47,089 nucleotides of DNA from positions 1 to 47,089 of IMG/VR virus record IMGVR_UViG_3300030329_005851; one strand, given 5' to 3'. This document shows, piece by piece, positions 1-37,953 of the stretch. The DNA is from a virus. Below the pieces are notes generated by a model. The model searched no databases. It saw only the letters and a list, made by a program, of their open reading frames with translations, and had not been told where the DNA came from. The position numbers were made by a program, and so were the translations under genes. Numbering within the stretch: position 1 is the first letter of the stretch; each line of letters starts with the position of its first letter.

Positions 1-3000
1 GAAACCCTTCCTCATCAGTTTGGCTTTTGACCGCTACATTTCTGAGCATCGGCAGGATTTCGCGCTCATCCACTGCACCCATTTGGTTTTCAATGAATTT
101 TTCCCTTTGTCTTTCTGCGGCGTCCAATAAACGAAGTAGTTCCTGGCCTCGATTATATTTTGCCGCCAACTCAGAGCGTCTTGCCCCCAAATCGGCAACA
201 AGCGGAGACTGGTCGGGATCGCTTTCTGCTTCACGAATTTGGCGGTCAAGCCCTTCAATCTCCTCCCCCATGCTAATTAAAAGAGGCTGCTCTTCAAATA
301 GAGCGTCAAACTCCGCAGTCCAAGCCGCAACATTTGCCGCAGACTCTAGATCTCCTTCTTTGGGAAATATAACCCTCTTCCCCTGTCGAAAAGCTTCCGC
401 TATACTTCCGCTCATTCCTGCTGCCACCAATCCTTGCCTGGGATCTTTGTGGACGGGTTTAATGGGAGGCAACGGAAAGCGCCATACAACCCCATCTTTA
501 TCCTTCTTCCACTCTCCAGACTTAACCTTCTCCTCCACTTCTTTAGTCTTGGGGCCATAGGTATTTAATTGCCACTCCGATAAAATTTTCTTGCGATCAT
601 AACCTATAGGTTTACGTCTATCGCGCCGCTCCGTTTGTTGGGCTTGAATTTGTGCCACCTGCTCAGTTAAGAAGTCAAACTCGGAGGGTCCCGTATCTCC
701 CTTCATTCTGCGCCCCGACTTGACTGCCGCCCTTTTGCGGCGCAGTTCTTGCATTTCTCCCGCGATTCTATCAGTTATTGTGCGCACTTTTTCGGCTTCG
801 TCAGGATCATAGGCGCCACCATGACGTACGGTTTGGCCTCTATTTTTCCACATTTCATCAAATGTTCTAGCAGATCTCCATTCGTCCAATTTCCCCAAGC
901 CAAGGCGTTTATTGGACTCCCTGGCGCTGGCGAGCCATTCTTCTTTGGCCTCTATATATTCTGGATTTTTTGGGTCTATTTCTCTCGGCATGGCTCTAAT
1001 AAATCTATCTGTATCAAAACCGACACCCTTTAACTGTTCAGGGGTATATCCTGCGTCCAAAAGAGTTTGATTGGCAAACATAATGGCCCGCTTATCTCCT
1101 TCCCTTATGCGGCCTTCCGCGGCCATCTTCCTTCTTTCTTCTGATTCGGCCAAGTCTTTCTTGGCCTTATCGTGCCTCTTCTTTTTTATGGAGTCGTGCA
1201 ATGGCCCGCTGTTCCTCCAGTGATGAGCTTGGTCGGCCATATAAGCACTAACGGCTGCGTATCCCGTAAGATTCTGCTTATTTGTTATATTAGGTAAATG
1301 TTTGGGGGTAAATGTCGAGGCCGTAGGCTTCCCCTCGGGGCCCACATATTTTGCTAGCGCCTCCCTATGCCATATTCCTTGTCGGCGAAAGAGCTCTCTA
1401 TCTCGCAACGCCTTAAGTTGGTGAGAAGCAACCGCCGCACCTATAGCACCCCCTACTTCGTTACCTTCGTCATCGAGCACTGATTTGCCCTCCATCATAC
1501 CTACCAGAAATCTTTCTCCCTCAACAGTGTAGCCCTTCCTTGTCGCCGCAAAGGCCTGCTCAAGTTCTCGATCAGCCAACACCTTTTTCACGTGCTGGAG
1601 CCATGCGAAACCTTCAGGCTTTTTCTGATCGGTGGGAAGTGCATTCCACTCCTTTTCCCATTGAGCGACTTTCTCTGGTGTAATTTGGAATGGCCCCGTT
1701 TTTGCTTGGGGTCCAAATAATTGCAGTTTTCCTCCTTTGGCAACGGGTGGAGGGGTAAGAGCTGCTGCACTAGTAGGACCACTAGAACCCCCTCGCACGG
1801 ATCCTCCTACGCCCAACGCCGCCCCGCGATCTCTTTGAGCGGTAATATAGTCTATTATCGTAGACAGGCTCTCTTCGGGGGGTTGATAAAACCCCCGTTT
1901 CCTCTGGTTATCAGTATACCATTTAGGGGGCTTTTTACCTTTTGACTCCCAATATTTCTTCATCGAGCCATGTGGGTCGATACCTTCTCCATCGCCCACG
2001 TCAACCCATCCCGCCTTATACTTCTTACTCTTTATTAGTTCGGTTTGTCTCGCGCTTAACTCCTTATAACTCCCCCTACTGGGGTTCCAACTCTGTCCCC
2101 CGAGGAACCCCCCCCTCTTTGCCCAATTTAGCTTATGGCCAAAAGAGGCCGCAACCTCTTCCATTATTTCTGGGAAAACACTTATAACTCGCTGGTCTCT
2201 GTCTTTACGCCCCCCCAGGGTCAGTAGCTCTCCACCCTTTTTACTAGCATAGAGACGCTCTCTTAGAACTAGGTCTTCCACCTGTATCATTAAGCTTTCT
2301 CCATCAATGGTGCCGTCGTTCCTTTTCCACCTACTCATCTCATTGGCATACCACTCACGAAAGAGCTCTACGGTTGCACTACGCATTCCCGAGGCGCCCT
2401 CTTTGCTAAAGCCAGGCAAATGCCTATCCTCTCGGAGGATATTGGCAGAAATGAAATGGGCTAGTTCGTTCTTTACATCTCCCTTGGGAAAGGACGATCC
2501 TCGTGAGCGGTTAAAGAATAGTGAATCCAGGCTATGAGCATAGGCTGCTTGAGGTCGCATATGCGTACTGGGAAGAGATACTCCTCTGATGGGCTTGGCC
2601 AAGCGGTCCTCCAATTTTTTTCTATATTTGTTTTGGGTTTCTGCATCCCAGCCGCTTCCCTTTAATATATCTTCAAGAACTTCTTGGGCCAACGTAGGTA
2701 ACTCAGGAATATTGTCACTCAAGTCCCAGTGCTTTTCGGCCTTCTCGTAAGCGCCAGACCTTCCTCCAGTCATGGAGCTCTTCGGGTTCCTGCTTCGCTC
2801 ATCCGCCCAGAGGTACTTTTTTAATTTTTCATCCCACTCCTTAGCGGCCTCGGTGTCTTCTGCGCCCGATACTACAGCAAAATTAGGAACAAAGCTTGAT
2901 TTTGCGGCTAAAAAATTAGGAATAAAACCAGCAGCAAAGCCGCGTCTAGAGCCTAAAGCTCTTTGTAGCCCAGGAGAGGTGGGATTAGCTCCAAAAAATT

Positions 3001-6000
3001 GCCCCCGAGTTAAGCGCTGTTGAGTAGCTGCATCAGGATTGGTATGGTGAATTCTCGTATAAAGGTCCTCTCCCCTGTTGGTTCCTGCAATAACGGGACG
3101 CAATAAAGCGTCCGATCCTCTGGCTTGATCGAAGTTAGCTAAAGTCAACGCTCTTGCTTGGTCGTCCGTAAGGCTAGCAGCCACGCGGCCATAAGCATCT
3201 CGATTTCCTGCGGTAGCCCTTACTCTAGTGCGGTAATCATTAGCCCACGCAGGGAGAGTTTGTCCGCGTGCCTCAAAGAGGTTTTCCATTCTATTAACTG
3301 CAGTAATGGCCGAGCCCCGTGTAAATTGAAACACCCCTGAGGCAGTAGTTGTCCCCGCCTGTGCATTTGGTCTATAATCCGACTCCACATGGCCCACTCG
3401 GGTTAAGAAGCGTTGCATATTACGATGCGCGGCGGGAGTATTATCTACCCCCAATCGACCCAACATAGCATTCATTACTGCCGTGGATTCCGTAAGCTGA
3501 AAGTTTGGCACAAAACCCCTATTAGCCACTCCTTGATAACGGGCGGAAGAAGCAATTGCTTGGCCAGGGCTTTCCCCTAAGCTACGATGTTGACTTAAGG
3601 CATCCCGAATGCTTGATTGATTGTTTTTGTCAATTACCGCAAAACCTATACGCTTATCATAGTCTAATTGAGGAGCGCCACCCATGGCGCGTTCAGTTTG
3701 CATTGCGCGCTTCACAGGATCGGGCGCTAAATTAGGAATGAAGCCTGTCGCTTTTGGCGCGCCTGGCGTCTTTGAGGGTTCAATCTCACCACTTAAAATT
3801 TTAGCTGCCTTCTCCAGGGCGGCGGCAATACTCAAGGCATCTTTAGGGAGATCATTTAATATGGCGCTGGTGGCTGCGAGAGATTCTCTCATTTTATCAC
3901 CCGACTTCCTAATCGCCTGAACATCGGCAACTAAGTCGAATCTAAGCTTATCCATCGTAACTTTACTTTTTGAGTATCCTGCACTTGCTTTAATAAGCTG
4001 GCTTATTTTTTCCCTAATCTCTCCACCCTTAGGGAAGTTAGTCATGGCGGTTACGTCTGTGAGATTTTGGGGAACTGTCAATCCTTTCTGTGCTGCGAGA
4101 TCAGTTATTTCCTGGCGCAAGGTCGTTACTTCATTCTGAAATTTTGTCATATTGGCCTGCTCTGCATCTATGGCAGGCATGCGCGCCTTTAGCAAGGTGT
4201 CTTCTTGGGCTTTTGTTTGTGCTTTAACTTCCGCTGGATCCTCTAGATTGATAGCCGTAGTCTTAACTTTCTCGAGGAGCATTATAAGCAAGGACGCAGT
4301 TTCCTGAAAAGCGGCTCCTGTTTTATTGTCGAGACTGGATAGTAGGTTATCTATATTAATAGGCTCTCCCAATGCCTGACCTTGGGGACCACCGCTCATC
4401 AGGGTTTGATTTACCTCTCCCGCAAATGTTCTAACTGCCTCCCTGCTCGCCTTGCGCCCAGGACCCGTCGTGGTTGTCCCAAGTTGGGGTGAAATATGCT
4501 GAGCTACTTCCAGGGTCTTAGACCATCTGGCGAAATCCTCGGCAATCGGCTGCGTTATATCCTCCCCTTCTAGGTCCTGCAAGAGTTGTATGAGTGGTGC
4601 AATCGCCGCCTCTACATCCCCACCCTTCGGAACAAAAGGATAGAGGGCGGTAGGTAGATCACTCTCTTGGCCATCCCCCCCTGCCATGTACTCACCAGCC
4701 CTCTGCCAGAACTTGGGAGTGTCAAGAGGTATATCCCCCAAGGCAAAAATACCAGCTTTGCGTTGGTCGGCCTTCGTTTTTTCGGTCTTTTCTTGCGTAA
4801 TATCTCCACCATAATGCCCGAACCTTCGAGTCTGATCAACCCCCTCCTCTAGAACGGCAGCCAAAGTCTCCTTAAGTAGCTTCGTTGTAAAATCTTTCAC
4901 CACATTTTTCTGCTCGTCGGGGTCAGTAGGAAAGCTTTTTCCTGTTTTTTGATATAAATTTTTTACAAAATCAGTGGCAACCACCGACATCCCTCCTCGT
5001 GTCTCCGTCTCCCGTGCCAGATTTTGGACTAGTGTGCGAGGGTCCCTTTTTTTCGCTTCCTCGGGGCTCTTTATTTCTCCCAACAAAAGGTCTACGGCTT
5101 GCTGGGCGTTGGGAATACGCTGTTCTTTTGCAACCTGCAGTATATGCTCCCTGGTAGCGCGCACGTTCTCGCCTTTGCTGAACTGCTTTTGGGTTTTTTC
5201 TCCATAAAAAACGCCCTCCTCGTCTTCGGATAACCTAAAAAAACTACCCCCATCCAAATCCTTTCTGGGCCTAAATAAAGGCCCCAATTGACCCTCTAAT
5301 AGGGCCGCAGTCATATAGTCGCCGCGACCAAATTCGCCCCCTTTCTGGAACCAGTCCTGGGGATCTTGCTTTCGATCAATCCATTCTCCGCTCCTCATCG
5401 ATTCTGCGCGAGGGCCTACACCACCTAGCGCCAATCCCCCCAGTGGATGCGATAGGGGTGCGGCACCGACCCCTTTTTCTAAAATTCGCCGCTCTCTTGG
5501 GGAAAGTATCCTCTCGCCCTCGTCAAAGCCAGAAGTATCTACTAGATAAACGCCCTTTGCATATTGCTCATGCTCGGGCGTCATTCCCTTCTCCTGCTGT
5601 CGCTTCGCCCTGACGACGCCATAAACGGCGTCGCCATAAAGTTCAGCTGGTTCATATCGGCTAACCCCTGCGCGCATCGTGCCTGTAGCCAAGGCTTGCA
5701 TTTTCCTAGCTTCTTCTTGCTGCACTAAGGCTTGATTGTTTTGAACTGTCGTACGAGCAGCTTGAGATTGTTTTTGAAGCTCTGCCACTGCTTTTTGCCT
5801 ATCAGCTATACCTAAAAAGGTTGACATTAAGCCTGCCATAGTAGAGGTGTGGCTGGAGATATCTCGCAATTCCTTGAGTTCGGGAGTGCTGACAGTGCTC
5901 ATGCCTGAAATAATGCCTTTTATCATTTTTAAGGTTGATTCGTCCGTGTCTATTATCTCTCCCGTACTTTTCACTTTACCCCCAAATAGGTCACTTATAG

Positions 6001-9000
6001 CTTTTACGTCAAGCTTCTTCTCGTCCTTTAGTTGACGAATAGCTCTTTCAAGAACGTTTCTCTCTCCTTCTATGATGCGTTTTTTTCTATCCTCGGGACT
6101 TAACTTAGAAATATATTGATTCTCCGCCATAGATAAAAATCGCCTGATCATTATTTCTAGATTAGCCTCGAATCCAGCCTCCCCTTCCCTCTCTCTCTTT
6201 ATCATTCCTGACTTAAGGAACACGCTTCTAATCTCCTCATAATTCGTCCTGCCTGAAAGCGGGTTCCGATGTCTTAGGTGTTCATCAATGCTTATGCCAG
6301 CTGGCGGCACGGCCTTCCCTTCCTTCAGAGCGTCAAATACCAGACCCCAGCCCATGCCTCCCTTGCTCGTAGGACCCAGAAGTTCATTTTGGGCGTACAC
6401 TCTTGCAGCTCCGCCCCCAAACAGCTCAGTAGGATCTATTTGCGCCTTTCTGTCATGCCTTTCATTAGCCGCGGCGGTCCACATATCCATCTCTTTTCCA
6501 AAATTAATTACATTAAACAAATCTTGAAATTGCCCACCCTTTTCCAGCGACTCTCGGAAGTAGGGGCTAATTAGATTTTGGGTCTCTACCCCCAGCTTTT
6601 CCTTAATGGTTTTGTCTGCCTTCTGGAGACGCGTAAAAAATTCAGCTTCGCTCTCGGGCCCAATTTTGGTGCCACTTGGCGTTTGCTCCTTAAATAAGTT
6701 TCTTATAACTGAGGTAATTTCTTCAACAGTGAAAGGCTGTCTTGCTGACGCGAATCTCTGTACTTCCTCACTCTTCTTTTGACTTAAGTTTTGAGCCCTT
6801 AACTCTATTAGCGACAATTGAGTGTTTAGATTTATTTTTTGTAGCTCAAATAAAGTGTCTTTTTCTGCATCTGTCTGATCTTCTAGCGTGGTACTCATTT
6901 GCTTGAGTTGCTCATCGCTGCGTACTAGGATTGCCTTAATCGCTTCTCCATGAAAACCCATTGGGTTTTCCGTCATTGCCGCAATTACACTATCATATCG
7001 CTCCCTCACATTGGAGCCCGCATTCATTTCCCTCGTTTCTACAAGTAGATCTCGTAAAACTTTTTCCGTATCCAACTGGCTCTGCTTATTGATTAATTGC
7101 TCTTGAAACCTCATCAATGAATCAGTGGCCTCGTTTTTCGTCATGCTCCCCTGAACTCTAGCGCTCCCCAGGCTAGCCTTCCGCATAGTTGTTAAGGTTT
7201 TACCCATTCTTTTGAAAGACTCCTGAACTAGTCCCATGTTTTTATTCATGGAATTTGCAGCACGCTCCAGTTCTCCCGCCAGATTCTGAACCACCGTAGT
7301 AATTCCTGAAATGGCCAGATTCATTTTGGCAGTACTTTGTAGTATACTACCTTCTGTGTTGAGAGCTGTTTTGACTACGGTCCTAAGTTCGTTGAAGTCC
7401 AAAGCTTCCGTTAGCCTTGAAACATCTTTAGAGGTAAGTTTAAATGTATTAAGCAGTACCTTGCGTACGTCGCTCATGGTTCCCCCTGCTAGTTGAGAAT
7501 ACGCCGCTCTTATTTGGTCCCTAGTGAGCTCTACCGACCTACTTAGTTCATTCCCCATGCCTTGTAGATCCTCTGAGCCAATGCGGTCTCCCCATCCATC
7601 ACCTCTCCCACCCATCCAGTTCTCATTTTCTTCATCTAGAGTAGCGGCAGTCTTTATTACGTGAGAAATAGCCTCTCGCTTTTCCGCGGTTTTACCCATA
7701 TTGGCAACTACCTTGCCCAATGCCTCCATGTCTCCTGCGGCACCTACTATTTGAGCGCGGACATCGGGATCTATAATATTATTGAAACTTTCGGCCAGTT
7801 CTTGTTGTAATTTCAGTTGATTTTTTAAATCTCCAGTTCTAAAGGCATCGTTTAATTTGGCCTGAGTTTGCACATAGGCGTCGGTGGAATTTATCAGTTG
7901 GCGCCGCTTATTGTTTTCATCGTCTAAATCTTTCGTAATCCCTTCCACTGACTCTTTAGCTCCCTCCAGTGCGCCTTTCCAGGCCATTACTCCAGTTACC
8001 ACGGCGGCAATTCCTATGGTTACAGGGTTAAGTCCCAGCATCATGGGAGCCAATGCTCCCATCCCTAATCCTTGCAGACCTCCTTTGACTGCCCCCGTTT
8101 CTTGATTGGAAACCTCAATTTGCTCCGCAATCATGGGGGCAAGAAAGCTGACTGCCATACCCCCCATTTGAGCACGAGCCGCCCGCTGTTCCTTCTTCAT
8201 CTCTTTTCGTTGCTCTCTCGCGTCTCTTTCCATAGCTCGCGGATCACCCGCGCCTACTGTTTCAGGTGCTGCTCCAGGCGTTGCAGACGGAACGGTTACG
8301 CTCGGAGTTGGCTGAGGTGTTGAACCACCCCTCCTACTCGGCTTCCTTTTCCTTTCTATAAGCTTCCTCATGTCCTTCTTCCCTGCGGCCAATTGTTTTT
8401 CCCAATGCGTCCTCCCTCCCTCAGAAAGGTCGGTCCTCTTCAACTGTGCGTTTGCTTCATTGATCCTATTTTGAATTTTCCGTTCCTGCTTCGACATAGC
8501 AAAATTAGGAATCATTCCTGAGGCGCTTAATCCCATGGTAGCGAACCCGCTCGTCATAGCCTCTTGGCTTAAGGCGCTATTGCTAATTGCCTCCCGCAGG
8601 CTTTCACCACCCCCCAAATGTTGGTTAATTGCATTAGAGAGGGTCCCCTGTTTCGCAGGATCATAAACCCCAAACCCATAAGATCCCGTGGCCTTGAGGC
8701 GCTCATCAAATCCTACTGCAGCCGCTCCCGATAAAGCCCTTTCGGTATCTATGGCCGTTTCTATTTCATCATATATGTTAGTGCTAAAATTGGGAACAAA
8801 ACCTCCCCCGAAAAATGGCATAACAATGTCGTCAATTTTATTTAAGTCTATTTTTTGTAAAGCTGGGTATTTTTGTAAAAGCTTCACAAGCTCTAACCCC
8901 GACAAATCCTTTAGGTTCTTTAATTTTTCTAGGACATTTTTAGGCAATTTCTTTAATGTATCCTTCCAGCCAGGCTTTGAGAAAGAGAATCCAGGGGGAA

Positions 9001-12000
9001 GCCTAAAAGGAGTCCCTCCTCCTGCCGCCGAAAAAGGATTAGGCGCCGCGATGGATGCGGCAAAATTAGGAATAAGCCCCTCGTTTAGTTTTCTTATTTT
9101 TACTCCATATTGTTTTCTCAATTTAGAAAGGAAAGCGAATTGATTAAGGGGTGCTCTTTTTACCCCCGCTAGCTGCTTGGTTGATCTCGGATCAAGACTG
9201 TGCGCTCCTCCCGACAGACGCATATTTCTGTTGGCTAATAGTTGCATGTTGGACTTGTATAAGTATTCTCTCGTTCCTCCCGTTCGCATAGAGGCCTCTA
9301 AAAGTTTTTTTGACATAGGCGACAAGCCCCCCGCCTTCGTCTCTCCCATGGCACTAAGGGCCATAATTCTATCGCCCGAACCCGCCTTTAGTGCCTGCAT
9401 TAGATCGGCGTCGCTTTTAATGAAACGATCCATTCCAAATTTATTGGCACCCCAATAGGTTTTTCCCGCACCCGATGGACCTATGGCTACGTCAATAGGC
9501 TTGCCGCTTTCAAGTAGTTTGTTTAAGGCGTTAGGGTAGGGTTTCTTTCCGCTACCGCTAAAAACATCACTATCCCAAACCCATGTCGCAAAATTAGGAA
9601 CAAACCCATCTGCAAGAGTGAAAGGTCTTCCAGCTCCGAAACGACCTCCTTTGCCTTTGGAGGGAATAGTAGGCATTTTTTTACCAGTCGTTACAAATTT
9701 ACCCCCCTTACCCTTCTTGAAATAACCTCCGCCCACAACAATAGAATTAAAAATCTTTTTAAACATATGAGGTTTGTCCGTGGGATTAATTGACGCATCT
9801 ATCCAGTCCCCCGTAAGGCCTGGGAAAAGCCCCCCTTTTTTAAGGTGCGACACTTGCCCAGTCCCCCTGGCATAATCAAAGCTTCCAGTTTCCTTTTTAA
9901 AAGCAGGAAGCCTTAGGGCCATTTGAACAGCCGTTTCAAAAATAGACCCCACTGCCCCCGATATGCCACCTTCGCTGGCGAACTTTTGAAAAAGATGCTT
10001 TCCAGGGGTCATAAGATTAGAGAGGGCCGTGGCTTTATTTTTTGACCAATTCCTTACTGAGCTTTCTATATTCCCCATTTGCTGGGCGGCGGGACCACTC
10101 TTGTCATAACCGAACATGCGGTATCCCATTTTTATCTTTCCAAAGCCAGGAACGTCGTGTTCTCCTTGTTGTATACCCCTTAAGCCAGGTGTTGGAGCAA
10201 TAACGCTTGCGGTTTGAGGGGAGGTGAGTCCAAAAATAATTCGCTGGGCCTCAAGCCTTTTTGTATTCTTGGCGGAGGCTATAGACCCCGCTATTTTCTC
10301 CGCCTTCTTTTGCCCAACAAGCTTCCGAGCGTAAGCAAAATCCGAAGAGGAGGGATTAAAACCTGCTGGCGACTGACTTAGCTTACCTCCCATATTACTT
10401 AATTGTCTAGCACTCAGCTCTTCAATTTGCGCATTCGTCATACGACGAGGGGTTAATATAGGTGGGGCCGCAAAGTTTGGAATAAAGCCCGTGGCCCGAC
10501 GCTTACTAACAGTATGTCCCTCGTGGTTCCTAATCTTGGCAGCAATCATATTTTTCATATAAGGGCGAGTAGTTAGGGCCTTCTGAAACATGGTGCTAAC
10601 AGTTTTATTCCCCTTGCTTTCCATGATGTTGTACTTTACGTCCACATCTTTTGTTTTTGCTGGAAGCCCTAATGTGTATTTTCCTTTTGCCGCTCGCCAA
10701 TTAGGAATATCCCACGTCCCTTCTTCGGGTAAATCTGACATTCTTAATCCTTGCAGTATAGCCGCTTCAAAGATTCGGCCTAGGCCCTGATTTCTCCCCA
10801 CTTTATCCATGGCGCTTTCGAGATTGGTATGAACCATTTTAGGTTTATTACCAGCCCCAAACCCCAGAGATGCAACGAACTCTTCAAATTGAAAATGCTT
10901 TTTTAGTTGGGCACGAAAGTCGGCTTGCCTCAATCCTCCAACAGGAAAAGAAAAGTCGGCGTAGTAATTACCTTTGTAATCTCCAATTCCTAGTAGGCTT
11001 TTTGTAACCTTGTTAGTGAGTCCCACTCTCCCCTTGGCGGTAAAGGCGTGTCCCATACCTTTTGGAGCCTGAGAAACTACCGCTCCCACATTAGGGGCAA
11101 AGGATCCGACCCTCTGCGCTCCTTTTTGTTTGCCCGAAACGATGCCCTTACCCTTAGTGAAAGTCATTTCCCGCGGAGGGGCCTTGCGGAAATTGGGGAT
11201 AAAGCCGCTGGCGCTCATAAATATCTCTTCGGCGACTGCAGAGGACATCCCCAGTTTGCCCCCTAGTTTTTTTAAGTTTTCCTGTTTAGCCGCCCCATAA
11301 GTAGGAAGTATCATATCTCTCCCTTTAGAGTTTAAGCCCATATGGGCGAGATCTTTGGCGCTATGCTTTACTTCTCCCGTGTTGTAAACATAGCGGCCGC
11401 CCGCATCTCTTCCATCCTTAGCTTGTATCCCTTTGGGCGCCCCTAAGGTTACTCCTTGGAGCACCTCCATACTCTTGGCTAGTTTGGAAAAGTTGGGAAC
11501 ATGTCCGTCTGCTCTAGGTTTTAGAGCACTAGCGGCCCTTTTAGTCTTCCCAACAACATGACCCTCCTTACTTACCGCGACTCCCTTTAGGCCAGGAAGC
11601 CCTGACAGACTGGCTAAAAAACTTGCCTGCCTCTGTCTTTCTGCGGTTTGTTGCCTAAGGAGGTCTAGGACTATTTTTTCCTTTTGAGCTTGAGTAACCC
11701 CAGCGGCCTGGAGTTTGTTCATGGCATTTTCTTCTTTTATTAAAAGTTGAAGAATCGCTTCCTCTAAAGCCCGCCTGCGTTGAGTTTCAGTATTGACCGC
11801 AAAAATAGACTTTACCGCATCGGCCCCCAATTTACCCATAATGGTAAAGAGCTTTAAAAATGCCCCACCTATAAGAATTAACCCTGGCCCCGCAATATAT
11901 GCTCCAATACCCTTCATGAAACCCTGTGCTAATTTATTGCCTTCTTGGGGGTCTAGAACTTTATTAAAGAAATCGGCAATACTTTGAATCATTCCTAAAA

Positions 12001-13174
12001 TTCTTTCCACTCCTGGGCCCGCAGTCAACTCTCCTATGGCTGCACTCATTTCCTTTACGCTCATGGCGGTCTGATGGGCCATGGCCGCAATTGTTTTATT
12101 GTATTCTTCATTTCTTCGAGTGGCTTGGTCTGTAGTGTTGTTGGCCGTTGATAATGCCCTGTTGTAAATTCCGTACTGTCCCGCCATATCCGTCACCAAG
12201 GCTTTTAAGTTATTTACCTGCCTTACCCCTGCAACCTGTTCTGCGGTATAGGCCCTCTGTTGGTCCGTAAGCGATTGATACGCTTTGGCATAATCCCTAA
12301 GAATTGCCGTAGCCGACCTCAAGCTTCCATTTGCATTTTCTGTGGCGACCCCAATGTCCTCTAGTGCACTTCTGACGCTGGAACGCTGGAGCCTGGTAAA
12401 GATGGTTTTAAAAGCATTGCCAATAACCGCCCCACCTCGTGCTGTTTGCTGCTGTACTGAAGTTACAATAGCCAGCAGCTCATTAAATTCAACCTTCGCG
12501 GCTTGAGCTGATGCCCCTGATCGACTAATAGCATCCGCAAGATCTCGTGAGCTCACCGCAAAAGCCGCGTCCACGTTAGCGAGGCGGTTTACAATGTCCG
12601 TACTCCCCAGGGCTTCTTTATTAAAACCATTAATTGCGGCAGTCAAATACTTAACCGAATCCGTGGCTGCCAATCCTGATAGACGAGTTAAAACCATGGC
12701 GTCATTTAAGCGCTTTAAGGTCTCGGCTGCCGTTAAGCCCTGTCGAGAGAATTCAGTAGCCGCATCACTAACTTCACTAAATGCTTGCCCTGTATTCCTA
12801 GCAACATCAAAAAGATCGCTCCCAAACTTTTGTAGATTACTACTCGTTAATTTAAAAATACTATTTAATTCAGTCAGGTTTTTGTTTAGTTCTATACTAT
12901 CTTTTACTAAAGCCTTAAATGCATTACCTACTGAATTGATTACTCCCACTGCAGCGCCAAACGCAAAAACACGAGCGGCAGATGCATCTAGGGATTTCTG
13001 GAACTCACTCATCTGACCCGTGATGCGTCCCAGAGGCATGGCAAAACCCTTGGGGTCGAGGGTTAGTTTCATAGGACGACGCGACAAAGTACGCTGGGCC
13101 GCATTCGCATCATTAATAATGCTCTGCGACAGCCCAACCTGCCTTACCCGCATTGTTATATCATCACGTGCCAT
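1..13174 (-). CDS. Giant mosaic tail tape measure protein (C-terminus outside window)
   Basis: One uninterrupted minus-strand frame of at least 4,391 codons from ATG at 13174 to the left edge, preceded by an AAGGA ribosome site. Residues about 50-270 resemble the TP901/PhageMin_Tail tape measure domain. Hydrophobic segments lie near residues 415-445 and 1690-1730, and long helical stretches fill about 1750-3100. Inserts include two related nuclease-like modules (FEAA near 800, FETA near 1080), a P-loop GPSGAGKT near 1232-1239, and a lytic transglycosylase-like segment with HVESDY (Glu about 3264) followed by GVFQFT. About eleven F-[IV]-P-N-F motifs separate these modules. Position just after two chaperone-like genes supports tape measure function: setting tail length and delivering wall-cleaving activity at infection. 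The tape measure call is firm. The kinase and nuclease labels are inferences from motifs. Confidence 0.9.
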   Translation of the reverse strand, partial: MARDDITMRVRQVGLSQSIINDANAAQRTLSRRPMKLTLDPKGFAMPLGRITGQMSEFQKSLDASAARVFAFGAAVGVINSVGNAFKALVKDSIELNKNLTELNSIFKLTSSNLQKFGSDLFDVARNTGQAFSEVSDAATEFSRQGLTAAETLKRLNDAMVLTRLSGLAATDSVKYLTAAINGFNKEALGSTDIVNRLANVDAAFAVSSRDLADAISRSGASAQAAKVEFNELLAIVTSVQQQTARGGAVIGNAFKTIFTRLQRSSVRSALEDIGVATENANGSLRSATAILRDYAKAYQSLTDQQRAYTAEQVAGVRQVNNLKALVTDMAGQYGIYNRALSTANNTTDQATRRNEEYNKTIAAMAHQTAMSVKEMSAAIGELTAGPGVERILGMIQSIADFFNKVLDPQEGNKLAQGFMKGIGAYIAGPGLILIGGAFLKLFTIMGKLGADAVKSIFAVNTETQRRRALEEAILQLLIKEENAMNKLQAAGVTQAQKEKIVLDLLRQQTAERQRQASFLASLSGLPGLKGVAVSKEGHVVGKTKRAASALKPRADGHVPNFSKLAKSMEVLQGVTLGAPKGIQAKDGRDAGGRYVYNTGEVKHSAKDLAHMGLNSKGRDMILPTYGAAKQENLKKLGGKLGMSSAVAEEIFMSASGFIPNFRKAPPREMTFTKGKGIVSGKQKGAQRVGSFAPNVGAVVSQAPKGMGHAFTAKGRVGLTNKVTKSLLGIGDYKGNYYADFSFPVGGLRQADFRAQLKKHFQFEEFVASLGFGAGNKPKMVHTNLESAMDKVGRNQGLGRIFEAAILQGLRMSDLPEEGTWDIPNWRAAKGKYTLGLPAKTKDVDVKYNIMESKGNKTVSTMFQKALTTRPYMKNMIAAKIRNHEGHTVSKRRATGFIPNFAAPPILTPRRMTNAQIEELSARQLSNMGGKLSQSPAGFNPSSSDFAYARKLVGQKKAEKIAGSIASAKNTKRLEAQRIIFGLTSPQTASVIAPTPGLRGIQQGEHDVPGFGKIKMGYRMFGYDKSGPAAQQMGNIESSVRNWSKNKATALSNLMTPGKHLFQKFASEGGISGAVGSIFETAVQMALRLPAFKKETGSFDYARGTGQVSHLKKGGLFPGLTGDWIDASINPTDKPHMFKKIFNSIVVGGGYFKKGKGGKFVTTGKKMPTIPSKGKGGRFGAGRPFTLADGFVPNFATWVWDSDVFSGSGKKPYPNALNKLLESGKPIDVAIGPSGAGKTYWGANKFGMDRFIKSDADLMQALKAGSGDRIMALSAMGETKAGGLSPMSKKLLEASMRTGGTREYLYKSNMQLLANRNMRLSGGAHSLDPRSTKQLAGVKRAPLNQFAFLSKLRKQYGVKIRKLNEGLIPNFAASIAAPNPFSAAGGGTPFRLPPGFSFSKPGWKDTLKKLPKNVLEKLKNLKDLSGLELVKLLQKYPALQKIDLNKIDDIVMPFFGGGFVPNFSTNIYDEIETAIDTERALSGAAAVGFDERLKATGSYGFGVYDPAKQGTLSNAINQHLGGGESLREAISNSALSQEAMTSGFATMGLSASGMIPNFAMSKQERKIQNRINEANAQLKRTDLSEGGRTHWEKQLAAGKKDMRKLIERKRKPSRRGGSTPQPTPSVTVPSATPGAAPETVGAGDPRAMERDAREQRKEMKKEQRAARAQMGGMAVSFLAPMIAEQIEVSNQETGAVKGGLQGLGMGALAPMMLGLNPVTIGIAAVVTGVMAWKGALEGAKESVEGITKDLDDENNKRRQLINSTDAYVQTQAKLNDAFRTGDLKNQLKLQQELAESFNNIIDPDVRAQIVGAAGDMEALGKVVANMGKTAEKREAISHVIKTAATLDEENENWMGGRGDGWGDRIGSEDLQGMGNELSRSVELTRDQIRAAYSQLAGGTMSDVRKVLLNTFKLTSKDVSRLTEALDFNELRTVVKTALNTEGSILQSTAKMNLAISGITTVVQNLAGELERAANSMNKNMGLVQESFKRMGKTLTTMRKASLGSARVQGSMTKNEATDSLMRFQEQLINKQSQLDTEKVLRDLLVETREMNAGSNVRERYDSVIAAMTENPMGFHGEAIKAILVRSDEQLKQMSTTLEDQTDAEKDTLFELQKINLNTQLSLIELRAQNLSQKKSEEVQRFASARQPFTVEEITSVIRNLFKEQTPSGTKIGPESEAEFFTRLQKADKTIKEKLGVETQNLISPYFRESLEKGGQFQDLFNVINFGKEMDMWTAAANERHDRKAQIDPTELFGGGAARVYAQNELLGPTSKGGMGWGLVFDALKEGKAVPPAGISIDEHLRHRNPLSGRTNYEEIRSVFLKSGMIKREREGEAGFEANLEIMIRRFLSMAENQYISKLSPEDRKKRIIEGERNVLERAIRQLKDEKKLDVKAISDLFGGKVKSTGEIIDTDESTLKMIKGIISGMSTVSTPELKELRDISSHTSTMAGLMSTFLGIADRQKAVAELQKQSQAARTTVQNNQALVQQEEARKMQALATGTMRAGVSRYEPAELYGDAVYGVVRAKRQQEKGMTPEHEQYAKGVYLVDTSGFDEGERILSPRERRILEKGVGAAPLSHPLGGLALGGVGPRAESMRSGEWIDRKQDPQDWFQKGGEFGRGDYMTAALLEGQLGPLFRPRKDLDGGSFFRLSEDEEGVFYGEKTQKQFSKGENVRATREHILQVAKEQRIPNAQQAVDLLLGEIKSPEEAKKRDPRTLVQNLARETETRGGMSVVATDFVKNLYQKTGKSFPTDPDEQKNVVKDFTTKLLKETLAAVLEEGVDQTRRFGHYGGDITQEKTEKTKADQRKAGIFALGDIPLDTPKFWQRAGEYMAGGDGQESDLPTALYPFVPKGGDVEAAIAPLIQLLQDLEGEDITQPIAEDFARWSKTLEVAQHISPQLGTTTTGPGRKASREAVRTFAGEVNQTLMSGGPQGQALGEPINIDNLLSSLDNKTGAAFQETASLLIMLLEKVKTTAINLEDPAEVKAQTKAQEDTLLKARMPAIDAEQANMTKFQNEVTTLRQEITDLAAQKGLTVPQNLTDVTAMTNFPKGGEIREKISQLIKASAGYSKSKVTMDKLRFDLVADVQAIRKSGDKMRESLAATSAILNDLPKDALSIAAALEKAAKILSGEIEPSKTPGAPKATGFIPNLAPDPVKRAMQTERAMGGAPQLDYDKRIGFAVIDKNNQSSIRDALSQHRSLGESPGQAIASSARYQGVANRGFVPNFQLTESTAVMNAMLGRLGVDNTPAAHRNMQRFLTRVGHVESDYRPNAQAGTTTASGVFQFTRGSAITAVNRMENLFEARGQTLPAWANDYRTRVRATAGNRDAYGRVAASLTDDQARALTLANFDQARGSDALLRPVIAGTNRGEDLYTRIHHTNPDAATQQRLTRGQFFGANPTSPGLQRALGSRRGFAAGFIPNFLAAKSSFVPNFAVVSGAEDTEAAKEWDEKLKKYLWADERSRNPKSSMTGGRSGAYEKAEKHWDLSDNIPELPTLAQEVLEDILKGSGWDAETQNKYRKKLEDRLAKPIRGVSLPSTHMRPQAAYAHSLDSLFFNRSRGSSFPKGDVKNELAHFISANILREDRHLPGFSKEGASGMRSATVELFREWYANEMSRWKRNDGTIDGESLMIQVEDLVLRERLYASKKGGELLTLGGRKDRDQRVISVFPEIMEEVAASFGHKLNWAKRGGFLGGQSWNPSRGSYKELSARQTELIKSKKYKAGWVDVGDGEGIDPHGSMKKYWESKGKKPPKWYTDNQRKRGFYQPPEESLSTIIDYITAQRDRGAALGVGGSVRGGSSGPTSAAALTPPPVAKGGKLQLFGPQAKTGPFQITPEKVAQWEKEWNALPTDQKKPEGFAWLQHVKKVLADRELEQAFAATRKGYTVEGERFLVGMMEGKSVLDDEGNEVGGAIGAAVASHQLKALRDRELFRRQGIWHREALAKYVGPEGKPTASTFTPKHLPNITNKQNLTGYAAVSAYMADQAHHWRNSGPLHDSIKKKRHDKAKKDLAESEERRKMAAEGRIREGDKRAIMFANQTLLDAGYTPEQLKGVGFDTDRFIRAMPREIDPKNPEYIEAKEEWLASARESNKRLGLGKLDEWRSARTFDEMWKNRGQTVRHGGAYDPDEAEKVRTITDRIAGEMQELRRKRAAVKSGRRMKGDTGPSEFDFLTEQVAQIQAQQTERRDRRKPIGYDRKKILSEWQLNTYGPKTKEVEEKVKSGEWKKDKDGVVWRFPLPPIKPVHKDPRQGLVAAGMSGSIAEAFRQGKRVIFPKEGDLESAANVAAWTAEFDALFEEQPLLISMGEEIEGLDRQIREAESDPDQSPLVADLGARRSELAAKYNRGQELLRLLDAAERQREKFIENQMGAVDEREILPMLRNVAVKSQTDEEGF
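2878..2940 (-). repeat. Double F-[IV]-P-N-F motif in tape measure
   Basis: Two motif copies, GFIPNF and SFVPNF, lie about 10 residues apart near residues 3413-3430. Other copies are at about 3500-3520, 3724-3745, 8500-8515, 8785-8800, 9061-9078, 9590-9605, 10472-10486, 11190-11204 and 11488-11502, with a degenerate FAPNV at about 11090-11104. They are usually preceded by a small residue plus Gly and followed by Ala. Confidence 0.8.
3180..3430 (-). other. Lytic transglycosylase-like domain inside the tape measure
   Basis: The minus-strand translation reads VGHVESDYRPNAQAG and then GVFQFTRGS. This is the catalytic-Glu plus G-[LV]-FQF pattern of SLT/lysozyme-like transglycosylases. A FVPNF motif lies just before it. 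Such domains in tape measures cut peptidoglycan locally during DNA entry. The Glu assignment comes from the motif only. Confidence 0.65.
9150..9600 (-). other. P-loop kinase-like domain inside the tape measure
   Basis: Between two F-[VL]-I/V-P-N-F motifs the translation contains a Walker A GPSGAGKT and, about 15 residues on, FIKSDADL. This resembles the layout of polynucleotide-kinase or zeta-toxin type P-loop kinases. A DSDVF stretch precedes it. No substrate can be inferred. Confidence 0.5.
9780..10900 (-). other. Two related nuclease-like modules inside the tape measure
   Basis: Two segments share the pattern G-x-IFE-[AT]-A followed by an acidic strand: GRIFEAAILQ then DVDVKY in one, GSIFETAVQM then GDWIDASI in the other. 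The E...D-x-D-x-K spacing suggests a restriction-endonuclease-like fold. The second copy lacks the obvious Lys. This is a weak inference from a few residues. Confidence 0.3.
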
Positions 13175-29814: not shown

Positions 29815-30441
29815 TTAATAGGGAATTACATCCTGCTCCCAAGGTCGCGGAGATCCGTGAAAGATAATAATCTTATGCTTATCCTCATCGTATAGCTTTC
29901 CCGAGCTTATACCTTCCCTAAAGGAAACAATGGCTGAAGAGAAATCCTGCCACATGCCGTATTCCCTTATTACCTCCATTATATAGTCTTGATCGCTGCG
30001 CAGTCTATGCATGGGTCTGAGGAAAGCGGGGATCGCCCTGCAATCCTCCTTAAACGAGTTATAAATATATGAGGCATCACCGCTCCAGTACAAAAGAGAA
30101 GACTGTAGCCATCCCTCTTTTCTGCTCCTCTCATAGTCGATAAGATCCCCCAGGATAACGAAGTCCTCTTTTTTAATTTTCTTAATAATCTGATTAATGT
30201 TCCCCGTTATTATAGTATCCAGGTCCAGAAACAATAAAGGCCCCCTAATCTTAAACAACTCCATCTTGGACCACCAACCAGGCCAATCATCGACTAAAGG
30301 GATATCATAACTTTCCTCGACTGTATCAGTGAAGCAAATAAAGTTCTCATGGGGAACATAATTCTCTACCATGGTTTTTATTTTCTCTACGTGAGAGCGA
30401 TTATAGTCGCCCCCCGATTTTAATACTACAGCCACCTTCAT
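29815..30441 (-). CDS. GT-A type glycosyltransferase
   Basis: 208 aa. Begins MKVAVVLKSGGDY and carries LLFLDLDTIITG, the DxD motif (residues 73-75) that binds nucleotide-sugar and metal in GT-A enzymes such as family 8. WSKMELF before it and IIFHGSPRPWE near the end fit that fold. The start overlaps the stop of the upstream gene (TAATG). Its place between terminase and portal, next to another sugar-enzyme-like gene, suggests glycosylation of a virion component or modification of host glycans. Target unknown. Confidence 0.7.
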   Translation of the reverse strand: MKVAVVLKSGGDYNRSHVEKIKTMVENYVPHENFICFTDTVEESYDIPLVDDWPGWWSKMELFKIRGPLLFLDLDTIITGNINQIIKKIKKEDFVILGDLIDYERSRKEGWLQSSLLYWSGDASYIYNSFKEDCRAIPAFLRPMHRLRSDQDYIMEVIREYGMWQDFSSAIVSFREGISSGKLYDEDKHKIIIFHGSPRPWEQDVIPY

Positions 30442-31145
30442 TACAAATTTGCGGCGGGTAAATATTCCATAAATTCATTAATGGGAGAATTTGGGGTGCA
30501 GGAAACTAATTCAAACCCATTATACTTAACTATATCTTTAAGGAGAGACAGTGCATTAGCTATAGCATTTTCTTGCGCCTCTATGTCGTATTCCTCTTTA
30601 TTGTATTTTGGACCCGCTGCAGAGAGCTTATTACTTCCCCCCATATCACACCCAACCAAATATATCTTTCCAATGCCCATCCACTTCAATATGCTCATTG
30701 CCACAGAGAAGGTACATCCTTCATATAAAAAATCCATATAAGGCCGATTTGAGGCCAACCCTTGTAGTTCTGAGGGGCTTAACTTTATTAGGTCTGTAGC
30801 GCGCATTACATTAAAAAAATGCATACCCGCCACTTCCTTGATCGGTTGCCCCTCATACCCCTCCCTCTCCCATGCAGAGTTATAGAATTTATCAAAAGAA
30901 GTGTGCCACAAACTATCGGCAAACGCCTCGGGCTCATCGAATCCAATCCATATGTCAGGTTTTATTTTTAAAAAAGCATTATTAAGTCCCACGATTAATT
31001 TTTTAGATTGCTGGATTTTATCTAATGGCGACTTTTCCAGGGAGGGGCCCGTACAGCATAATATAGCCTCTTGTCCTCGTCGTGAGTTGTAAAAGGTAAC
31101 ATCCCCAAAAGACTGGGTGGGAGAATGCCACTTTCGTAACCCCAT
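30441..31145 (-). CDS. DUF115/sialyltransferase-like Rossmann enzyme
   Basis: 234 aa from ATG at 31145, one base after the terminase stop; the frame extends 15 codons into terminase. N-terminal AILCCTGPSLEKSP matches the G-x-GPSL nucleotide-binding loop of the DUF115 and CST-type sialyltransferase families, and IYLVGCDMGG near residue 180 matches their second conserved strand. Probably acts with the adjoining GT-A enzyme on a carbohydrate. The exact reaction cannot be assigned. Confidence 0.6.
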   Translation of the reverse strand: MGLRKWHSPTQSFGDVTFYNSRRGQEAILCCTGPSLEKSPLDKIQQSKKLIVGLNNAFLKIKPDIWIGFDEPEAFADSLWHTSFDKFYNSAWEREGYEGQPIKEVAGMHFFNVMRATDLIKLSPSELQGLASNRPYMDFLYEGCTFSVAMSILKWMGIGKIYLVGCDMGGSNKLSAAGPKYNKEEYDIEAQENAIANALSLLKDIVKYNGFELVSCTPNSPINEFMEYLPAANL

Positions 31146-31146
31146 A

Positions 31147-33024
31147 CTACTTAATAAACATGGGGGTAAAGGTTGACTGAACCTCTTCAATGTTTGCGTT
31201 CATCATGTCATAATAAACCTTTATCATCCAATTTCCAAGCACGAGTGCGGAATAAGAGTCCTTGCGTGTCTTATCGGGGCCAGTCTGCCTTTTAAGCATT
31301 TGAGGTAGGTCAAATGTTTGATGCCCCTGGGGGGACGTTGTAATCTGGACAAGAGCGCATTCTGTTTTAGTAAGATTAATCATGTCATACTGATGCTCCA
31401 CAAAATCAATCATCATGGCCTGATTCGAGGACTTTCCCAGTGCCTCCGCCCCATTATCAAACTTTAAGGATTTTATGGGAATTTTTTTATTAATTTGTTG
31501 GTGGTAGGTATCACCCAATGCTCTCCCTCCGAACCATATTCTTCGGTGGTCAAAATTAGCCTGGAGCAACTCATTCGCCAACCTTATCCAGCCACTAGTG
31601 GGTTTTTGGAGGAGGCAGATTTTTTTGGTATCTAGATTGTATTCTAATTTCCCCGTCTTAATGGAGTCGTTGTAATTTACGGGATTAGAGAAATCTGTCT
31701 CCAGTTGGCCGAATTGAATCTTTTCTTTTTTAAATACGTCGCTTTCATTTACTGCGTTCAAAAATTGCACCCCACCCATATAATCTCCAATAATGGCAAC
31801 GATATTAAAGCTATGCCATAAATAATGAAAGTAAGCAATATGATCTTTTAGCTTGGCCCCAGAAAGAGCGTAACTATGGACTACGGTTCCCCACTTGTTA
31901 CCATCGTCTAATTTTAACACCTGAATAGCAAAATCGTCAGAGCTTTCACTTTCGGCCCAGCTAGGGTCAAAAGCTAAAATATATTTTGCACCAGGAGCAC
32001 CCTTTACTTCTATCGAGGGATTTTCCCCGTCATCCACGGTGCATCGCGCCATAGTAGACACCTTGAAGTAGCCGCTACTATCGTCGGTAAACATAGCCCC
32101 AAACTCCCGATCATATTGGCTTTGGCTCATGGAGGCCCTAGCTTGATCGATAAGGTTTTGATCATACAACATTTTTGGAGCCATATCGTAACTAAAATGC
32201 ATTATGACCCTGTGCGCATCACTTGCCTTTCGGTCCTCCTGTCCATGGAGAATTAAATTCTCAAAGTTCTGATAAACCTTATATAAATACTCAAACTTAT
32301 AGCTGGCAGACGACAAGGCAATCAATTTATTATTAGGCCATACATATTTATCCTCTGGCCTCATCTTCCCTTGTGCGATTAGCTTATTCTCTGCTTGATC
32401 TAGATCCTCCCTTTGGGTGGGGTTTTCTACAACAGACAGGAAGGGAATTATAACCTCATTATAAATTCTTTCGGGCATTAGCAAAAACTCGTCAATAATA
32501 ATTCTTTGAAACCTAAATCCCCGCAACTTTTCACCATCACCCAGCGGGAGCGCATGAATTTTAGATCTTCCAATTTCCATAGTCCACTGATCGTTAGTCT
32601 TCGATGTTTTGTTAATGCATTGCGCCAAAAATCTTGCGCCAGGCTTATTGGCAATATCTTCGATTTTTTTAAAGATTAATTTAGACTGCCTAAAAGATTT
32701 ACTCAGAATTCCCGTTTCTACCCCTTGATTTAAAATAGCGTCCAAAAATGCGTATATACCCGTGGTGAAACTTTTACTCATTCCTCGAGACCAAATCCCT
32801 AAAAAATAATCCGTCTCAAACATAGCTTTTACAGCCATATGTTGAAATGGAAATAATTTCACCCCACTCAAGAGGTCTGTGGAAAAAGTGATATTCTCCC
32901 TAAGAAATTCATACAGCAAAAGCTTAGCTTCTTCTTCCTTTATGAAACCCTTCTGGTTTAATAGGAATTGATTGAAATCCTCAGGCCTGGCCCGTGAATT
33001 CTGTATGCCTGTATCCCAGCTCAT
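31147..33024 (-). CDS. terL: Terminase large subunit
   Basis: 625 aa. ATPase: Walker A variant WSRGMSKSFT (residues 79-87) and Walker B RIIIDEF (about 174-180). C-terminal RNase H-like nuclease: ILAFDPSW (Asp 353) and AIIGDYMGG (Asp 413), plus a later Asp. Motor that cuts and packages phage DNA through the portal. ATGA overlap with the ERCC4-like nuclease gene upstream, and immediately followed by the sugar-enzyme pair. Confidence 0.95.
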   Translation of the reverse strand: MSWDTGIQNSRARPEDFNQFLLNQKGFIKEEEAKLLLYEFLRENITFSTDLLSGVKLFPFQHMAVKAMFETDYFLGIWSRGMSKSFTTGIYAFLDAILNQGVETGILSKSFRQSKLIFKKIEDIANKPGARFLAQCINKTSKTNDQWTMEIGRSKIHALPLGDGEKLRGFRFQRIIIDEFLLMPERIYNEVIIPFLSVVENPTQREDLDQAENKLIAQGKMRPEDKYVWPNNKLIALSSASYKFEYLYKVYQNFENLILHGQEDRKASDAHRVIMHFSYDMAPKMLYDQNLIDQARASMSQSQYDREFGAMFTDDSSGYFKVSTMARCTVDDGENPSIEVKGAPGAKYILAFDPSWAESESSDDFAIQVLKLDDGNKWGTVVHSYALSGAKLKDHIAYFHYLWHSFNIVAIIGDYMGGVQFLNAVNESDVFKKEKIQFGQLETDFSNPVNYNDSIKTGKLEYNLDTKKICLLQKPTSGWIRLANELLQANFDHRRIWFGGRALGDTYHQQINKKIPIKSLKFDNGAEALGKSSNQAMMIDFVEHQYDMINLTKTECALVQITTSPQGHQTFDLPQMLKRQTGPDKTRKDSYSALVLGNWMIKVYYDMMNANIEEVQSTFTPMFIK

Positions 33025-33938
33025 TTTTTATCTAAATAATACTGAATGTCTACATTCCAGAGGGGTTCCCCTATGGCCAGGAGCCTTGGAATGATTTTCT
33101 CAGAATTTCTTCTGTTGCCACTAAATACAAATTGACATGATCTGGCAAAGTCATGTGAAAGCACACGCATATTATGCCATATATATCTTAAATTAGAACG
33201 ATGGGGACAAAAGTTATTATTCTTCTTTATCTTAGGGATAGAAGACTCTACAACAATATACAAATAACTATTAAAATCCTTGGCTCTTTGTAATTCTCTG
33301 CGAAAGCGATCAAAGCCCGTGGAGAGGGTAGACTTAAAGTCGGTCTCGCTTTTGCGGTCAACATAGGTATGGGTATAGTCATCCCCTATGGATGTGTAAT
33401 CCCCGAAGTCTAATTTCATTTCTTGTGAGTTATTAAACTTTAACGGCTGTTGTTCTCGGGTATCTATGAATATTCCTATGTTTTCAAATTCTTCGACGGG
33501 AGCATAAAACTTCTTTATTACTCCTTTATTATATAATGGTTCCACTCCCACTTCTTCACAAGCGGCGCTATAAGACCCGTAGTGCTCCCTAAAAAGCTCT
33601 AACGGCGGCAACTTGTTCAAGAGTACCTCTAGGTGATTCGGGGCATATTTTAGCTCTTTTGTTTTTACTCTATGTTTTAGTTCTTTTAAGATATAAGCTT
33701 TAACCTCTTCTTTTGATGCTTGGTTGCACCACTTTAACATCTGCTGGTAGGTTGCAAAATCCTTTGCAAAATAATCCGCTTTATTTTTAAATGGTAACGG
33801 CTCTTTAGTTAAAAGATTATAACGCGGAAAATGTTTAGTATAATACTCGCCTAATGTCAGGGAATGCTTTTTTAAGTGAGCATGTAGTGAACGCTCCGAT
33901 TTAAATTCCTGACCGCACTCTTTGCACTTATAAGACAT
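33021..33938 (-). CDS. C2H2 zinc finger plus ERCC4-type nuclease
   Basis: 305 aa. Residues 5-25 form a C2H2 finger (Cys5, Cys8, His21, His25). Residues about 152-240 match the ERCC4/XPF nuclease core: FIDTREQQPL, KLDFGDYTS and YVDRKSETDF, the last being a variant of the V-ERK-xxx-D active site with Asp for Glu. A FDRFRRELQRA helix and IVVESS strand follow. Overlaps upstream and downstream genes. Lying directly before terL suggests a role in DNA branch resolution or end processing linked to packaging. Confidence 0.8.
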   Translation of the reverse strand: MSYKCKECGQEFKSERSLHAHLKKHSLTLGEYYTKHFPRYNLLTKEPLPFKNKADYFAKDFATYQQMLKWCNQASKEEVKAYILKELKHRVKTKELKYAPNHLEVLLNKLPPLELFREHYGSYSAACEEVGVEPLYNKGVIKKFYAPVEEFENIGIFIDTREQQPLKFNNSQEMKLDFGDYTSIGDDYTHTYVDRKSETDFKSTLSTGFDRFRRELQRAKDFNSYLYIVVESSIPKIKKNNNFCPHRSNLRYIWHNMRVLSHDFARSCQFVFSGNRRNSEKIIPRLLAIGEPLWNVDIQYYLDKK

Positions 33939-36741: not shown

Positions 36742-36941
36742 TTCTGCTGCAAAGCATCGTAGTCAGCCTTGCTGCAGAACTTGGTCAATTTGGTTCCATC
36801 ATCATCCACGGCGCTAAATGCATATCGAACGGATAGATTACCGTTCTTGGTTTTTCTCTCATAAACTTTTTTCTCTACCTTAGAGGAAGATACTTGTACC
36901 TTCGTTTTCTTCTTGACGTTATAAAATTCTACGTGATTCAT
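36738..36941 (-). CDS. Small basic protein, unknown
   Basis: 67 aa, Lys-rich first half (VKKKTKVQVSSSKVEKKVYE), then LSVRYAFSAVDDDGTKLTKF. No known domain. ATGA overlap with the protease gene upstream and with the GAF-like gene downstream, so part of the same operon. Confidence 0.6.
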   Translation of the reverse strand: MNHVEFYNVKKKTKVQVSSSKVEKKVYERKTKNGNLSVRYAFSAVDDDGTKLTKFCSKADYDALQQK

Positions 36942-37846: not shown

Positions 37847-37873
37847 AGTTATGATATAATAACGGCTCGTACA

Positions 37874-37884
37874 GTAATATACAC
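37874..37884 (-). promoter_or_regulatory. GTGTATATTAC motif, candidate late promoter
   Basis: Minus strand GTGTATATTAC about 27 nt before the protease ATG, in the divergent intergenic region. Same motif family as at the tail genes. Confidence 0.35.
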
Positions 37885-37923
37885 TAATAAAATTTTTTTT
37901 GTACAGGAATTGGCATTTTTGAC

Positions 37924-37953
37924 TTGACATGCGCCCCATGAAGTGTATTTATA
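37924..37953 (+). promoter_or_regulatory. Promoter of plus-strand cluster
   Basis: TTGACA at 37924-37929, 17-nt spacer, ATTTAT at 37947-37952. The -10 region overlaps a GTGTATTTATA box (37943-37953), so it may be both a sigma-70 and a late promoter. ATG follows 10 nt later. Confidence 0.6.

Follow-up and report, generated by a model that had tools for sequence, protein, structure and literature searches.

What is the role of a phage tape measure protein (TMP) whose chain carries enzyme-like segments separated by copies of one short motif? We addressed this question in a virus record of 47,089 bases, probably a fragment, which was analyzed at its full length and is called the window hereafter. 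A previous sequence-only reading had assigned one long frame of the window to a TMP with about eleven copies of the motif. Between the copies it placed two nuclease-like segments, a P-loop kinase-like segment, a lytic transglycosylase, and a repeated module of about 60 residues. It suggested that the motif could be a protease site or a docking unit, in which case the protein would be a carrier of toxins or effectors. Our analysis favors, with a probability of roughly 60%, a gene for a polyvalent TMP, which would be injected and would bear effector cassettes open to exchange.

The tape measure gene and its motif arrays

The TMP open reading frame (ORF) extends from position 2 to 13174 on the minus strand, where all the window features described below are located. 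It has at least 4,391 codons with no internal stop and is open at the window start. Residues 125-316 (12227-12802) match the PhageMin_Tail core (PF10145, E = 2.6e-27), which establishes homology to TMPs, and 12 PHROG tape-measure families also match the ORF. The single long frame is thus uninterrupted and encodes a TMP, as first proposed. Matches between its core and cultured phages cover only roughly the first 400 residues. The full-length ORF (P0001) as a single scan query gave zero relatives, and smaller pieces were then used as queries.

The protein presents 11 copies of G-x-[IV]-P-N-[FL], including one-letter variants, between residues 557 and 3432. The same protein shuffled 300 times has a mean of 0.013 copies and a maximum of 1. 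The earlier count is confirmed with one refinement. The copies form two arrays (residues 557-1558 and 3144-3432), with 1,585 motif-free residues between them.

Array 1 (8501-11506) contains seven copies. They are GHVPNF at residue 557 (11489-11506), GFIPNF at residues 657 (11189-11206) and 896 (10472-10489), GFVPNF at 1190 (9590-9607), GLIPNF at 1366 (9062-9079), GFVPNF at 1458 (8786-8803), and GMIPNF at 1553 (8501-8518). Array 2 (2879-3745) consists of GFIPNL at residue 3144 (3728-3745), GFVPNF at 3220 (3500-3517), GFIPNF at 3416 (2912-2929), and SFVPNF at 3427 (2879-2896). The last two, motifs 10 and 11, are a close pair, GFIPNF-LAAKS-SFVPNF, with a gap of five residues (2879-2929). Close pairs are also found in relatives, with spacings of 4-10 residues, and are possibly empty cassette slots.

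The motif is widespread and conserved as protein

The motif is not confined to this phage; it is widespread among viral contigs. The first scan of these contigs used one degenerate motif coding and returned at least 120 stretches, and two variant scans were added. Most of the motif-bearing long ORFs of the first scan had 2-8 copies, and the reversed motif was almost absent. The three scans together gave at least 293 motif-bearing ORFs of 200 amino acids or more (at least 254 with two or more copies), and at least 844 distinct motif copies were collected across long ORFs. All the relatives are metagenomic fragments, and both the required motif and the 120-stretch scans bias the sample toward arrays with the canonical motif.

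Compared across the TMPs of other phages, the motif recurs with a shared consensus, A-A-x-G-F-I-P-N-F-A. Its P and N were fixed by the search pattern, and the first scan also demanded one alanine codon upstream and one downstream. The later regular expression demanded neither the A-A ahead of the core nor the A behind it, yet these residues are enriched. Synonymous codon usage is about as variable at the motif as in the rest of the same ORFs. Therefore, selection acts on the motif as protein and not as DNA, and this test gives no support to the motif as a DNA recombination site. Only one model places the motif between two folded domains, and in it the linker with the motif is disordered, with a predicted local distance difference test (pLDDT) score under 50. 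The motif is a linear motif, conserved at the protein level at cassette junctions.

Bacterial and archaeal contigs contain 27 exact matches to the motif. Multi-motif ORFs appear there only in L206 and L218, which are contigs of metagenome-assembled genomes. The matches in Alicyclobacillus are single-copy proteins of about 660 amino acids and were judged unrelated. As queries, the closing S module and the A + P-loop + S array had no match in cultured phages.

Whole cassettes are exchanged at the motif

Some TMPs share 88-99% identity with one another as far as the first motif and lose their similarity right after it. There, the identical residues per ten fall from about 9-10 to 0-3. Inside the array, the ORFs L166 and L180 differ by the presence of whole cassettes. 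They have five cassettes in common (89-99% identity), and L166 presents two extra cassettes, of 161 and 151 amino acids, between motifs. One of the two is present in L096 at 88% identity.

We located breakpoints as the ends of local alignments of at least 60% identity in all the ORFs, and counted those no more than 12 residues away from a motif. Such ends make up 50% and 47% of the total, ten times the 5% obtained with random positions. Inside the array zone, the values are 68% and 56%, against 14% and 15%; all of these are enrichments and not P values, as related ORFs are not independent. By these alignments, the motif is the commonest breakpoint, though not the sole one, and whole cassettes are gained, lost, and swapped at motifs.

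In TMPs with more than 90% identity ahead of the array, the identity over the 600 residues behind it is often down to 25-50%. This divergence suggests a second exchange point.

Cassettes of the window

Array 1 starts with an entry unit of 94 amino acids (cluster 7; 11207-11488). Two nuclease-like cassettes follow, as had been predicted. The first (residues 663-895; 10490-11188) has the PD-(D/E)XK-type signature GRIFE...WD...DVK, and its counterpart is present in L231 and L232. The second (residues 902-1189; 9608-10471) is of the same family, and its activity is doubtful because the lysine of DxK is replaced (it reads DAS). Thus, the residues E...D...DxK are complete in the first copy alone. 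Both cassettes fall in the commonest cassette family, of which 63 aligned members retain G-x-x-F-E, a D, and a D-x-K, i.e., the PD-(D/E)XK-type signature. Profile comparison links three clusters of nuclease-like kind, with probabilities of 92-97%. A homologous A + S pair was modelled with confidence (pLDDT 82), and its domains are mixed alpha/beta. Lectins matched by this family in searches of the PDB were at chance level.

The next cassette (residues 1196-1365; 9080-9589) contains the Walker A sequence GPSGAGKT and invariant positions common to 22 homologues. Its model is also confident (pLDDT 82.7; predicted template modelling score 0.79). Foldseek found adenylate kinase (E = 3e-4) and polynucleotide kinase/phosphatase (PNKP; probability 0.99). 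A second look with VIA-align gave zeta toxin (Z 6.6, root mean square deviation 3.9, 140 aligned) and a bacterial polynucleotide kinase (Z 6.3). All these Z values are under 8, too low to name a subfamily. The Walker A sequence, the confident model, and the structural neighbors bear out the earlier assignment, and the cassette has a predicted P-loop kinase fold.

A segment of 86 amino acids for which no relative was found (8804-9061) separates this cassette from the exit unit. The latter, an S module (residues 1464-1552; 8519-8785), closes array 1. The second copy of the S module (residues 3150-3219; 3518-3727) is in array 2, and both copies belong to one family of 130 segments. It means that the repeated module is real, with a length of about 60-90 amino acids.

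Array 2 also carries a lytic-transglycosylase-like cassette (residues 3226-3415; 2930-3499). Its match to SLT (E = 0.045) is sub-threshold, with 13.8 bits against a curated cut-off of 21.3, and tblastn relates it to an "internal virion protein" (E = 2e-6). The resemblance noted before is retained here as a plausible relationship to lytic transglycosylases, below the level of family membership.

Cassettes of the relatives

L232 is the nearest relative by the TMP N-terminus (55% identity). Its array includes a complete CCA-adding enzyme along with two further cassettes, one PD-(D/E)XK-like and one of HAD type with motifs I-IV. The CCA-adding enzyme (L232:14666-16174) matches PF01743 (E = 6e-19) and PDB entry 3wfo (E = 2e-22). 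It belongs to the PolyA_pol head family and has the catalytic motifs GGAPRD...DWD and RRDLTIN. In the HAD phosphatase cassettes, motifs I-IV are invariant.

Domain matches in other arrays include a GHKL ATPase (3.8e-5), a cytidyltransferase-like domain (3.4e-8), and GNAT (9e-4). An SNase-like cassette (0.014) is below the cut-off. Among the relatives there is also another family of PD-(D/E)XK-like cassettes, whose signature is VD...E-x-K. The cassettes form 144 clusters, of which 89 are singletons, and nuclease-like domains are the most common. ART-like (ADP-ribosyltransferase), protein-kinase-like, ParB-like, and zincin-like signatures were seen by eye in some cassettes; they had no significant support from Pfam or the PDB and serve as leads only. 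A PADLOC scan of the cassettes gave weak scattered matches only. To judge from their sequences, several cassette families are recognizable enzymes with conserved catalytic signatures.

Layout of the arrays and a proposed model of delivery

The first motif is usually near residue 540-630, behind the conserved N-terminal part of the TMP. Small units of clusters 2, 5, and 7 are mostly the first in the arrays. The unit of about 70 amino acids (cluster 0, the S module) is the last in 122 of 178 arrays. In these 178 arrays, the relatives run at least 400 amino acids beyond the array, so the array is internal.

Hydrophobic segments in 80 non-redundant ORFs were scored with a simple Kyte-Doolittle window in place of a topology predictor. 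At a threshold of 1.4, all 80 ORFs have a segment within 300 residues before the array, 64 have one within 400 residues after it, and five have one inside. At 1.6, these numbers are 69, 45, and 1. The window conforms to this layout, with a membrane-spanning candidate before array 1 (residues ~422-451; 11824-11911) and a hydrophobic segment after it (residues ~1705-1736; 7967-8062). From its hydrophobicity, the array is a probable hydrophilic loop, with membrane-spanning candidates before it and, mostly, after it.

These observations are compatible with the following mechanism. The TMP would lie in the tail lumen and be ejected into the host envelope as other TMPs are. In other systems, TMPs are ejected, contact the inner membrane, and insert in membranes (PMC13190303; PMC13277306). 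The hydrophobic segments would insert in the membrane, and the loop between them would show the cassettes on one face, most usefully the cytoplasm. There, we infer, the cassettes refold and act. Their action would be host takeover or counter-defence, by nucleic-acid cleavage, repair of nucleic-acid or tRNA ends, or protein modification. Wall cutting would be added where a transglycosylase is carried. By analogy, then, the tail would transport the cassettes, and the host would be their place of action. More tentatively, the motif might be bound, in its flexible linker, by the tail-tube wall or by a TMP chaperone. Such docking would let each cassette thread as a separate bead.

Repair of tRNA ends damaged by the host is a counter-defence role of T4 enzymes. 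The kinase, phosphatase, and CCA-adding cassettes would fit the repair of tRNA ends, and no array was found with all three. A toxin in the narrow sense is only one possible reading: the CCA-adding enzyme, the HAD phosphatase, and the polynucleotide-kinase-like P-loop cassette suit counter-defence or takeover no less than poisoning. On the other hand, comparative genomics strongly supports the broader notion of a cargo or effector carrier, through swaps of whole units, diverse enzyme-like cassettes, and conserved catalytic signatures.

Several points weigh against the delivery of effectors. Folded domains would be hard to fit in the tail lumen, short of unfolding or a strung-out arrangement. 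Most cassettes have no Pfam match. The nuclease-like family had no significant match in sequence and fold searches of the PDB; consequently, the label "nuclease" rests on the residue signature, and the second copy of the window lacks the lysine of this signature. About one third to half of the breakpoints in the array zone are away from motifs. Finally, the hydrophobicity measure is a simple one, and by its lower threshold a few arrays (5/80) have an internal hydrophobic stretch.

Alternative explanations

The main alternative to docking is that the motif is a processing site. The protein would then be a polyprotein, cut at the motifs by a phage or host protease. The cut could occur in the producing cell, with separate enzymes as the result, or on entry, where it would free the cargo. 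We consider this possible, but clearly less probable than the polyvalent TMP. In favor of a processing site, the motif marks domain junctions, has a near-invariant P-N, and sits, in the model, where a disordered linker joins folded domains. A trypsin-like protease (PF13365, E = 2e-12) is encoded in the window, too, although its N-terminal stretch resembles a signal peptide. Nevertheless, the conservation of the flanks (A-A-x-G and A) suits a binding motif equally well.

The trypsin-like serine protease gene is located at 36938-37939. It is an unusual gene for a phage, and its product may be a processing or periplasmic protease.

It is improbable that the cassettes do no more than add length to the ruler, their enzyme folds being passive filler. 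TMP length climbs with the number of motifs (r = 0.72 in 56 complete long ORFs), but a longer array necessarily gives a longer protein under any explanation. Several unrelated families keep their catalytic signatures, and the modelled domains are mixed alpha/beta instead of long helices. The segments modelled or identified between motifs are different from ordinary helical tape measure.

Least credible of all are selfish inserts (homing-nuclease or intein-like) with the motif as their DNA target: nuclease-like domains are the commonest cassettes, and nuclease genes are reported at phage recombination boundaries (PMC10448857), but the synonymous codons speak against the DNA of the motif as a conserved target, many of the cassettes are something other than nucleases, and the inserts remain in frame.

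Comparison with known systems

The polyvalent TMP proposed here resembles the polyvalent proteins of phages and conjugative elements (Iyer et al. 2017, PMC5512222), in which unrelated enzyme domains share one very long chain that is thought to be injected. Their repertoire includes ARTs, kinases, GNATs, Pol-beta nucleotidyltransferases, zincin peptidases, ParB-like DNases, and lysozyme/transglycosylase domains, and it overlaps with that of the arrays. Several unrelated catalytic domains in one chain are also predicted here. By sequence and model, the window has the P-loop kinase, nuclease-like, and SLT-like cassettes, and L232 has the CCA-adding enzyme, HAD, and nuclease-like cassettes. In contrast, the phage members described in that work are probably packaged in the capsid, and tape measures are unmentioned, whereas here the carrier is the TMP. 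The cassettes of the arrays are, moreover, bounded by one conserved motif.

The effectors Sle1 and Tme of contractile injection systems (PMC13277306) are also carriers derived from a TMP, with variable functional domains in a tail-like particle. Effectors of the Sle1 type are thus a precedent, in a bacterial contractile system, for reconfigurable functional domains borne by a TMP-like protein. Unlike the arrays, they belong to bacterial devices with a C-terminal functional domain, and no internal array bounded by motifs is reported for them. Enzyme domains within TMPs are likewise present in mycobacteriophage TM4 (via PMC13277306) and in the annotation of SPbeta YomI. As far as those sources describe them, these TMPs carry wall-acting domains only, and not exchangeable arrays of several enzymes.

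According to PMC3482391, polymorphic toxins generate diversity by the recombination of cassettes onto a conserved carrier. The TMPs share with them the conserved carrier and the exchangeable cassettes. However, the variable toxin domain is at the C-terminus in the account of that source, and in the TMPs several cassettes stand together in an internal array.

In the literature searched, which leaves out most subscription journals, no relevant paper contains FIPNF or longer forms of this string, and none describes such a TMP. For the broader proposal, the odds seem evenly balanced to us. It would be a widespread and previously undescribed class of tailed phages, in which the TMP is a reprogrammable delivery chain. 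One short linear motif would define how enzyme cassettes plug in. Two segments would insert in the host membrane, and the array, as the loop between them, would be presented across it.

Other genes of the window

A gene at 30441-31190 has an MptE-like domain (PF01973, E = 7e-7, below the cut-off). It adjoins a gene for a 208-amino acid protein without family, and both are between the portal-like and terminase genes. Immediately upstream of the terminase, the gene at 33021-33938 presents a C2H2 zinc-finger-like start (PF00096, E = 4e-5, just below the cut-off).

Implications for tailed phages

A survey of mosaicism in phage proteins reported a mosaic signal for TMPs at the sequence level and confirmed no genuine recently emerged case (PMC10684548). 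Compared with this survey, the arrays supply clear candidate cases of recent mosaicism in TMPs. If delivery is confirmed, one motif would be a handle for injected phage effectors that annotation misses. Injected multi-enzyme proteins would be extended from the capsid to the tail. Likewise, it would become possible to test whether folded enzyme domains pass through the phage tail, and by what means.
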